Shown here: one piece after another, positions 39,652 to 43,765 of the stretch
Position numbering within the stretch: position 1 is the stretch's first letter
How the letters are laid out: the number at the start of each line of letters is the position of its first letter
Assembly: GCF_947490405.1 (NCBI RefSeq)
Contig: NZ_CANLGU010000003.1
Span: 248,001 to 312,000, forward strand
Length of the DNA: 64,000 nucleotides
Direction: 5' to 3'
From: an uncultured Algibacter sp.
GTDB lineage: Bacteria; Bacteroidota; Bacteroidia; Flavobacteriales; Flavobacteriaceae
Program-made: the position numbers and the translations under genes
Notes under the pieces: generated by a model
Told to the model about the DNA's origin: nothing
What the model saw: only the letters and a program-made list of their open reading frames with translations
Databases searched by the model: none

Positions 39652-41319
<1,668 letters not shown>

Positions 41320-41410
41320 TTAAAATAGTAATTTAAGAGGGACTTGTTAACAATTTTCCAATTGATTTAATCCTACAAATCATTTGACTTTGTAAAAAAA
41401 TTCTACTAAA

Positions 41411-41420
41411 TTCGCTAACG
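41411..41420 (+). repeat. Outer inverted repeat, left arm, of putative cassette
   Basis: TTCGCTAACG; exact reverse complement CGTTAGCGAA at 42846-42855. Confidence 0.7.
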
Positions 41421-41481
41421 ACTGATATAAGTCACTTGTGCTGAACTTGTTTCAGTATTAAAACGACGTCATATCATATAA

Positions 41482-41491
41482 GTTGGCAACA
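41482..41491 (+). repeat. Inner inverted repeat, left arm, of putative cassette
   Basis: GTTGGCAACA; exact reverse complement TGTTGCCAAC at 42719-42728. Confidence 0.7.
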
Positions 41492-41513
41492 ATTTGAAAA
41501 ACTAAAATAAACT

Positions 41514-42137
41514 ATGGCATTACCATCAACTTACACGAATTCCTATTCAACTTTACCTGAATTTTTTGGTAAAATAAGGGATGCTCAAGCACCTGATAGG
41601 TTTACAAATCAAATATTAAAAGATTTAGGATATAAGTCTAACAACCATAGACCTTTCATTCCATTAATGAAAGCTTTAGGTTTTTTGTCATCTGATGGTA
41701 GTCCAACACAGAGATACCAAGAATATCGAAACCACGCTTTGTCAGAAAGAATTATGGGAGAAGCTATTAAAGAAGCTTATTCTGACTTGTTTTTAATAAA
41801 ATCAAAGCCTACTCAAAAGGATAATGAACTAATTACTGGTAAATTCAAAAGTTACCATAATGTAAGTGATACTGTTGCAAACTTAATGTCTAAAACATTC
41901 TTTTCTCTATTAAAAATTGCTGATTTAGAATTTGACCAAAAGAAGTTATCTACTGAAAAAGTTAAGGATAAGATTGAGCCAACCAAAACCGAACCTAAAG
42001 GAGTACAAGAAAAAATAATTAAAGAAACTTCTGGTCTTGGACTTCACTACAATATTCAAATTCATCTACCTGCAACTAAAGATATTGAAGTTTACAATGC
42101 TATTTTTAAATCTTTAAAAGAACATTTAATTGAGTAA
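41514..42137 (+). CDS. DUF5343-like protein (winged-helix-like N-term, separate C-terminal segment)
   Basis: LPEFFGKIRDAQAPDRFTNQILKDLGYKSNNHRPFIPLMKALGFLSSDGSPTQRYQEYR; charged linker; C-term GLHYNIQIHLPATKDIEVYNAIFKSLKEHL. Confidence 0.65.
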   Translation: MALPSTYTNSYSTLPEFFGKIRDAQAPDRFTNQILKDLGYKSNNHRPFIPLMKALGFLSSDGSPTQRYQEYRNHALSERIMGEAIKEAYSDLFLIKSKPTQKDNELITGKFKSYHNVSDTVANLMSKTFFSLLKIADLEFDQKKLSTEKVKDKIEPTKTEPKGVQEKIIKETSGLGLHYNIQIHLPATKDIEVYNAIFKSLKEHLIE

Positions 42138-42714
42138 TCAAAAAGACATAAGAGATTTTCTTTTTCGAGGTTTAATGTTCGAATCAGAAGCTTCCAAATT
42201 TCAAGGAGCTGGAATTCAAATTGGCGCTGACTCAAGTTACACGGAAAAGCAACTTTTGGGAGAAGCACTTGCACCTTTTGGAATTTCGAGACGAAATAAT
42301 GCATTAGAAATGGCTAGACTGTATGCCATTATTAACTGCTTTGAAAATGAAATTAGAGATTTCATTCGTGAAACTTTAACCGAAAATGAAGGTGTTGATT
42401 GGTGGAATAATCTACCTAGAAAAACGAAAGAACACGCAGAAAAAAGACAAACAACCGCATTAACTGATTCTTGGCTTGAAGGAGAAAAAACAGATTTATT
42501 GGGCTTCGTTGATTTTGGAATGCTTGCTTCAATTATGATTGAGAAATGGACTTGTTTTAGTAACTTAATTCCTTCACAGCATTGGCTAAAACAAAGAATG
42601 GAAGAATTGGAAAAAGCTAGAAATTTTATAGCACATAATAGAATGCTTTTACCTAGCGAATTCCAAAGGATTTATATGTATGTTGCTGATTGGAATAGAG
42701 TAATTGGATTATAA
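42130..42714 (+). CDS. HEPN-domain protein (Swt1-like)
   Basis: All-helical; MARLYAIINCFENEIRDFIRETL core and C-terminal RNFIAHN (R-X4-H motif); TTG start overlapping upstream stop by 8 bp. Confidence 0.65.
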   Translation: MSNQKDIRDFLFRGLMFESEASKFQGAGIQIGADSSYTEKQLLGEALAPFGISRRNNALEMARLYAIINCFENEIRDFIRETLTENEGVDWWNNLPRKTKEHAEKRQTTALTDSWLEGEKTDLLGFVDFGMLASIMIEKWTCFSNLIPSQHWLKQRMEELEKARNFIAHNRMLLPSEFQRIYMYVADWNRVIGL

Positions 42715-42718
42715 AAAC

Positions 42719-42728
42719 TGTTGCCAAC
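42719..42728 (-). repeat. Inner inverted repeat, right arm
   Basis: TGTTGCCAAC, reverse complement of 41482-41491. Confidence 0.7.
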
Positions 42729-42764
42729 AACGTGTATAATTAATTGCTGGTTTTAGCCTACTTA

Positions 42765-42786
42765 AGAAAATCCTCGCGGATTTTCT
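42765..42786 (+). other. Stem-loop within right flank of cassette
   Basis: AGAAAATCC-TCGC-GGATTTTCT, 9-bp perfect stem. Confidence 0.65.
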
Positions 42787-42845
42787 ATTCGGTTTGTATT
42801 TGCTAAATTAGGTGATTAAAACACGCAACAAATCATATAAAAACA

Positions 42846-42855
42846 CGTTAGCGAA
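42846..42855 (-). repeat. Outer inverted repeat, right arm
   Basis: CGTTAGCGAA, reverse complement of 41411-41420. Confidence 0.7.
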
Positions 42856-42863
42856 AATCAATC

Positions 42864-43136
42864 CTAAACCTCCAAAATCTCTTCTTCGCTCTTTTGAAAT
42901 ACATAGGTTAAAAACCACATGATGGTAAATGTTGGTATAATATCAAACCCAGGTATAATCTCTTCAATAAAAGATACAACACCAGCTATTTTACCACGGT
43001 TACCTTTATACATTTTGCTCATTAAATACCCAGATGCTGGTGCCCAAATAATATCAAAAATGGTAAGCATACCAATAGCATCAAATACTAGGCTTAATCC
43101 GAGCTTTTTATATTTACTTAAATTTTCTAAATTCAT
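42864..43136 (-). CDS. Small membrane hypothetical protein
   Basis: 90 aa, two hydrophobic segments, intact ORF. Confidence 0.65.
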   Translation of the reverse strand: MNLENLSKYKKLGLSLVFDAIGMLTIFDIIWAPASGYLMSKMYKGNRGKIAGVVSFIEEIIPGFDIIPTFTIMWFLTYVFQKSEEEILEV

Positions 43137-43177: not shown

Positions 43178-43765
43178 TTATTTTCCAATAAGCTTTAGAA
43201 ACTCATTTCTAGTTTCAATTTTTTCAAACTGCCCTCTAAAGCCAGAAGTTGTTGTTATAGAATTTTGTTTTTGCACACCTCGCATCATCATACACATGTG
43301 TGATGCTTCAATAACCACAGCTACACCTTGAGGCTTAAGCGTATCATTTATACAATCTAAAACTTGCTCTGTAAGGCGTTCTTGTACTTGCAATCGTCTT
43401 GCAAACACATCAACAATTCTAGGTAATTTACTCAACCCTACAATTTGACCGTTAGGAATATATGCAATGTGTACCTTTCCAAAAAAAGGTAAGATATGGT
43501 GTTCACAAAGCGAATACAACTCAATATCTTTAACAATAACCATTTCATTATAAGACTCTTTAAACATGGCTCCCTTTAGGATTTCAACTGGATCTTGATC
43601 GTAACCTTGAGTTAAAAATTGCATCGCTTTGGCTGCACGTTCAGGTGTCTTCAAAAGACCTTCACGCTGCGTATTTTCACCTAAGTCCTTAATAATAGCT
43701 TCGTATCTGTTTTTAACATCATCAGTGATTTTATCGTTGTACTCTTCAAAACTTTTATATGGCAT
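43178..43765 (-). CDS. folE: GTP cyclohydrolase I
   Basis: [50 protein letters not shown]. Confidence 0.97.

Follow-up and report, generated by a model that had tools for sequence, protein, structure and literature searches.

A pair of overlapping genes in an uncultured Algibacter sp. is very likely a PDC-M34-type module, DUF5343 plus HEPN, that is carried as a single mobile cassette of an integron-like system. This judgment comes from sequence comparisons; it applies to the reading as a cassette and to the assignment to a family, and does not extend to the defense mechanism. The pair lies in a 64,000-nt stretch of contig NZ_CANLGU010000003.1 (hereafter, the window), and all coordinates given without a locus name refer to that stretch. 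The original prediction was made from the sequence alone and overlooked the carrier of the two genes: the pair is bracketed by recombination sites at 41411-41482 and 42718-42857.

The gene pair and its proteins

Gene 1 (41514-42137, + strand) has an ATG start and encodes a 207-aa DUF5343 protein. Gene 2 (42130-42714, + strand) has a TTG start and encodes a 194-aa, Swt1-like HEPN protein. As originally described, the two ORFs overlap; they share 8 nt (TTGAGTAA, 42130-42137), and translation of gene 2 is probably coupled to that of gene 1 through this overlap. The description of the pair as standing alone amid minus-strand genes is likewise correct, with pyrG (39652-41286), the gene for a 90-aa membrane protein (42864-43136), and folE (43178-43765) all on the − strand.

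Gene 1 had been called DUF5343-like, and it matches the Pfam DUF5343 model with E = 1.9e-45 and 155 bits (cut-off 27). Its AlphaFold model consists of a confident N-terminal domain, a disordered linker, and a C-terminal helix, the last of which is conserved (IHLPATKDIEVYNAIFKSLKEHL). The winged helix proposed for the N-terminus finds partial support: the predicted three helices and small hairpin are compatible with it, but a Foldseek search of the PDB with the gene 1 model gave no significant fold match. Gene 2 scores above the cut-off of Pfam HEPN_Swt1 (E = 3.2e-13; 50.4 bits, cut-off 27.5). Its RX4H motif, RNFIAH (residues 164-169; 42619-42636, + strand), is predicted to be the active site of an RNase. 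In an alignment of 43 gene-2 homologues, down to ~25% identity, R164 and H169 never vary; E72 and R76 are likewise invariant in these sequences. The reading of gene 2 as a HEPN protein with an R-X4-H motif thus holds. Its expected all-helical structure is borne out by the AlphaFold model (pLDDT 87.5), although the HEPN fold as such was not recovered by Foldseek, with no PDB match at E <= 0.001. In two other loci (L070 and L071), gene-2-like HEPN domains are fused to a different N-terminal domain and have no DUF5343 partner.

A listed candidate defense system

Gene 1 matches the PADLOC model PDC-M34A over residues 1-205 of 207 (E = 8.6e-77), and gene 2 matches PDC-M34B over residues 1-193 of 194 (E = 6.2e-69). 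Judged by these matches, the pair is PDC-M34, a candidate defense system already listed in PADLOC. Both proteins align near full length, in the same order and with overlapping genes; we saw no difference from PDC-M34, and carriage as a cassette is what the present analysis adds. The PADLOC candidates of this class originate from a "guilt-by-embedding" screen, and most of them are unvalidated (PMC12988326). The earlier statement that no characterized system has this pair is therefore true to the letter, yet the pair was already on record as a candidate. A search of the open-access literature found no paper on DUF5343 or PDC-M34.

A scan of GTDB genomes yielded 80 DUF5343 loci, and a HEPN gene lies directly 3′ of the DUF5343 gene in 78 of them. 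The gene-pair association is thus conserved, as had been anticipated, and it extends over Bacteroidota, Pseudomonadota, Actinomycetota, Cyanobacteria, Acidobacteria, and Chloroflexi, as well as archaea. Within the family, the distribution is patchy, with a gene-2 homologue in just 8 of 250 other Flavobacteriaceae genomes. No defense-island setting was seen: most genes immediately beside the homologues have housekeeping roles or no relation to defense, with no clear enrichment of defense genes in this survey, which had no matched control. The best-supported setting of the pair is that of a solitary mobile cassette.

The possibility of a known phage or plasmid gene is ruled out: viral contigs searched for gene 2, and plasmids and phages searched for gene 1, contained no homologue.

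Possible functions of the pair

Gene 2 resembles HEPN toxins and effectors (HEPN-MNT, Abi, and Swt1-like proteins) in its all-helical structure, its invariant RX4H motif, and its match to HEPN_Swt1. It differs from HEPN-MNT systems in its partner, which is a DUF5343 protein rather than a nucleotidyltransferase, and from HepT in its motif, RNFIAHNR, which lacks the tyrosine of RX4HXY. We infer a defense or toxin role for the pair. In the mechanism that we favor, with about even confidence, the HEPN protein would be an RNase, and the DUF5343 protein would hold it inactive and sense infection; release of the HEPN protein would lead to RNA cleavage, and phage growth would be stopped by abortive infection.

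The main rival on function is a toxin-antitoxin addiction module, in which a HEPN toxin and a DUF5343 antitoxin would stabilize cassettes rather than act against phage. We consider this possible, though on the unlikely side. The two small overlapping genes, the antitoxin-first order, and the HEPN toxin signature all fit such a module, and toxin-antitoxin cassettes are common in large integrons. However, the copy in the window is solitary and not in an array where other cassettes could be held; the two proteins are of roughly equal size, unlike those of most type II pairs; and the family is among the PADLOC defense candidates. It is unlikely that the HEPN protein is instead without catalytic activity and binds RNA or protein as the partner of a DUF5343 regulator that serves in housekeeping or stress. 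The lack of a significant structural match for either protein would suit that reading, but the R and H of the motif are invariant across even the most distant of the aligned homologues, and a housekeeping role is ill-suited to both the patchy distribution in the family and the horizontal spread.

The cassette and its landing site

The whole gene cassette occupies 41483-42847 (+ strand; 1365 bp), from G|TTGGCAACA to CACG|TTAGCGAA. To its left is one half of a landing site, an attC-like hairpin at 41411-41482 (+ strand) with the crossover after G 41482, which belongs to the same family as the landing sites of other isolated cassettes. This half has an R″-like arm, TTCGCTAAC (41411-41419, + strand), and a REP-like hairpin insertion, GTGCTGAACTTGTTTCAGTA (about 41436-41458, + strand), that is missing from the same site in two genomes of the genus (G258 and G044). 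At the right end lies the attC-like recombination site of the pair cassette itself (42718-42857, + strand; 140 bp), which matches our home-made site model, R1, with 145.3 bits and an E-value of 3e-31, the E-values of this model being rough. The site consists of an R″ arm (42718-42728, + strand), a covarying inner stem, and an R′ arm, GTTAGCGAA, that starts at 42847 (+ strand). The right half of the landing site (TTAGCGAAAA; 42848-42857, + strand) runs on into the native intergenic region between pyrG and the membrane-protein gene. At 42718, the R″ sequence CTGTTGCCAAC is complementary to TTGGCAACAA, the 5′ end of the cassette itself.

Comparisons with other genomes support these boundaries. 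Similarity to a copy in a Flavobacteriaceae MAG (L125; 83% nt identity) starts at 41481, the predicted cassette boundary. In one genome of the same genus (G254), the interval from pyrG to the membrane-protein gene holds an empty target, ..TTAAAG|TTAGCAAAAAT.., and the right half of the window's landing site matches this TTAGCAAAAAT.., which directly follows the left half in the empty site. In another (G044), the same G|TT junction holds a different cassette, a 181-aa gene with its own site, followed by TTAGCAAAAAT... The empty target, the other cassette, and the pair cassette thus have a single G|TT junction in common, and the target is not duplicated. Carriage of the unit by an IS or transposon was considered and rejected, with no transposase inside the unit and a junction that is explained by G|TT.

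The other solitary cassettes of the genome occupy the same type of landing site, TTCGTTTAACGTCGGATATAAGTCATTAAAACGACGCATATCCG..G|TT..CG|TTAAACGAAC. In the window, the 5′ part of the landing site bears a promoter-like sequence, TTTG-N20-TAAATTCG (41383-41414, + strand; TTTG at 41383 and TAAATTCG at 41407), that reads into the cassette. TTG/TANNTTTG is the promoter consensus of Bacteroidota. By eye, TTG-N19~21-TANNTTCG is present at the equivalent place in 11 of 12 isolated cassettes of the genome; with the strict pattern TTTG-N17~22-TANNTTYG, only the landing site of the window matches among the 12. We suggest that this promoter-like sequence is active and that a captured cassette would be expressed from it.

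Eight of the 12 solitary cassettes checked lie 39-79 nt before a Flavo-1 RNA (RF01705; G000:C2, C4, and C5; L013, L018, L019, and L022-L026). Because Flavo-1 is itself a 67-copy repeat in the genome, we do not take this closeness to the landing sites as functional.

Recombination sites and cassette arrays

By BLAST, the repeat just 3′ of gene 2 has ~33 copies in the genome, arranged in tandem with a spacing of ~1-2 kb on three contigs and occurring singly elsewhere. With a covariance model, about 60 sites are counted, most of them in head-to-tail arrays. In each site, the left arm varies but ends in AAC; an inner stem follows, and the right arm has CG|TT and then variable letters. The R′ arms keep GTT while the next letters vary (GTTGTGT, GTTACCC, GTTGGCA), and the GTTRRRY and RYYYAAC boxes are not kept. 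The inner stem is 93% paired, with double changes at seven pairs, and none of 500 shuffles reaches its score. Such a covarying stem is compatible with recombination via a folded, single-stranded attC.

In an integron-type array, each cassette begins with the right arm of the site before it, and the left arm of the cassette's own site is expected to be complementary to that 5′ end. Across three arrays of the genome, 112 of 160 positions match in this way, compared with 54.8 after shuffling, and none of 20,000 shuffles reaches the observed value; cassettes of one genome are not independent here, and model R1 and the arrays derive from one family. Among 143 cassettes from other genomes, the matching fraction is 0.81, against 0.32 for shuffled sequences (maximum 0.38). 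In the control, which compares the left and right arms of one and the same site, the fraction is 0.35. This complementarity is as expected, at the level of sequence, if cassettes exist as circles that recombine at G|TT.

The median array cassette is 770 bp long, and the longest ORF is in the sense orientation in 157 of 167. Their cargo is mostly unknown in Pfam and includes a few PADLOC-type genes. A second HEPN type, RiboL-PSP (L010:7969-8682), and a beta-lactamase-family protein (L010:2332-3426) are encoded by other cassettes in the arrays of this genome.

Ends and sites of this kind also occur with the pair outside the window. An attC-like site is found a few nucleotides past the HEPN stop codon in other Bacteroidota (L125, L126, L127, L153, L160, L177, and L069), the sites in L153 and L126 being weak matches. 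Cassette-type matched ends are present in 8 of 77 pair loci, compared with 0.2% of mismatched locus pairs; these loci, some of them in Pseudomonadota, include Halomonas, Polaromonas, Rhodoferax, Pseudohongiella, and an Ectothiorhodospiraceae MAG. No IntI-like or array-type integrase was found in the 4-kb flanks of the 80 loci. Upstream of the 91%-identical gene-1 homologue of L125, we noticed (L125:3740-4000) the apparent C-terminal end of a tyrosine recombinase gene, followed by an attI-like hairpin; the pair would be the first cassette in that locus.

The array recombinase

A 372-aa tyrosine recombinase encoded in the genome (G000:C7:2421-3539, − strand) directly precedes an array. For its relatives in complete genomes, 18 of 19 stretches have every counted site downstream of the recombinase and in its orientation; the first recognized site is 4-8 kb from the recombinase in L113 and L117, and L124 has no site on that strand. 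The first cassette starts 56-138 nt past the recombinase stop codon, always after G, in 12 of 18 arrays, and its start is often preceded by a TATA-rich, attI-like stretch. This position leads us to infer that the cassettes are moved by the array recombinase. A second member of the same group in the genome (383 aa; L039:1733-2884, G000:C4) has no array beside it.

The layout, as the sequences show it, is as follows. Behind a tyrosine recombinase gene, and on its strand, come an attI-like site and then cassettes of ~0.8 kb lined up head to tail, every one of which closes with an attC-like hairpin. Solitary cassettes, including that of the pair, occupy dispersed landing sites bearing promoter-like sequence. 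The recombinase would excise and insert cassettes, as circles, at G|TT.

The best NCBIfam model for the array recombinase is NF040815 (210.7 bits, cut-off 220), which NCBI names "site-specific tyrosine recombinase/integron integrase," and its best PDB match is XerA (5hxy). While it resembles Xer/XerA-type recombinases in these two respects, it differs from them in having a ~100-residue N-terminal extension, in its association with arrays, and in forming a group apart from the Xer proteins of the genome.

Integron or integron-like

The system shares much with integrons: tandem one-gene cassettes, hairpin sites with paired outer arms, complementarity to the cassette's own 5′ end, a G|TT junction, an attI-like first site, and mostly unknown cargo. 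With this same overall logic, a score of 191.9 bits on the IntI model TIGR02249, and a small tree of 35 rows in which the array recombinase is nearer to IntI than to Xer, one might regard the arrays as true integrons with a divergent IntI. We think this quite improbable. The score is below the 265-bit cut-off of the model, and the recombinase lacks ~43 residues of the IntI-specific region, with IntI residues ~173-247 corresponding to only ~30 residues. In the tree, array recombinases form their own group, outside that of IntI1, IntI2, and Vibrio IntIA (100/99), although the branch that separates them is weak (87/77). The integrase is co-oriented with the array, and the attI-like site lies past its stop codon rather than at the gene start. 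The R arms are of ~10 nt and do not follow the GTTRRRY consensus, and single cassettes occupy dispersed, promoter-like landing sites. Because the recombinase lacks the IntI-specific insert and scores under the IntI cut-off, we call the system integron-like rather than an integron. The IntI-specific domain has been described as necessary for integron recombination (PMC9668308), and one survey notes incomplete conservation of the insertion within its "integron-like" subgroup (PMC8138268).

That the 140-bp repeat is instead a MITE- or REP-like element, with the array order a by-product of transposition rather than of site-specific capture, is barely credible: the many dispersed palindromic copies, and the abundance of other repeats such as Flavo-1 in the genome, would fit it, but array copies all point in one direction beside a recombinase, left arms match the 5′ end of their own cassette and not the other arm of the same site, and three different occupancies of the locus share a single junction.

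Distribution of the system and a possible link to tet(X3)

The site model has matches in 220 of 251 Flavobacteriaceae genomes, covering 207 of 237 genera; in a sample of 396 genomes spread evenly across the phylum, 75 have a match. Bacteroidetes are regarded as almost devoid of integrons. According to the IntegronFinder 2.0 study, earlier finds in this phylum were limited to integrase-only elements, and the study adds one complete integron, in Salinibacter (PMC9024848). Integron surveys appear not to recognize the Flavobacteriaceae system, and we found no description of integrons or of an integron-like system of Flavobacteriaceae in open-access papers.

Outside Bacteroidota, the array recombinase has its nearest plasmid-borne relatives in truncated TnpF proteins, with 54.8% identity over residues 146-372. 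TnpF directly precedes tet(X3), on the same strand, on Acinetobacter plasmids (L205, NZ_CP104735.1, 2967-4988; L208, FJ012881.1, 6028-8049), and in the tree it groups with the array recombinases. No site past tet(X3) was found with model R1. The authors of an earlier study remarked on a "xerD" gene beside tet(X) without explaining it (PMC7473080). By eye, the stretch preceding tet(X3) looks similar to an attI-like hairpin.

Taken as a whole, the picture that we consider evenly balanced between right and wrong is the following. Most Flavobacteriaceae would have an independent integron-like platform, with a non-IntI recombinase, its own attI/attC family, and dispersed, promoter-bearing landing sites, which has been missed since surveys require IntI. 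This platform would circulate defense modules such as the pair described here, and it would be the source of tet(X3) and the truncated recombinase on Acinetobacter plasmids. Such a system would explain the movement of the candidate defense pair, bears on the origin of tet(X), and would test the need for an IntI-specific domain in cassette capture. Present in such a share of the family's genomes, it would give access to a large reservoir of mobile and mostly uncharacterized genes in dominant marine and soil bacteria.
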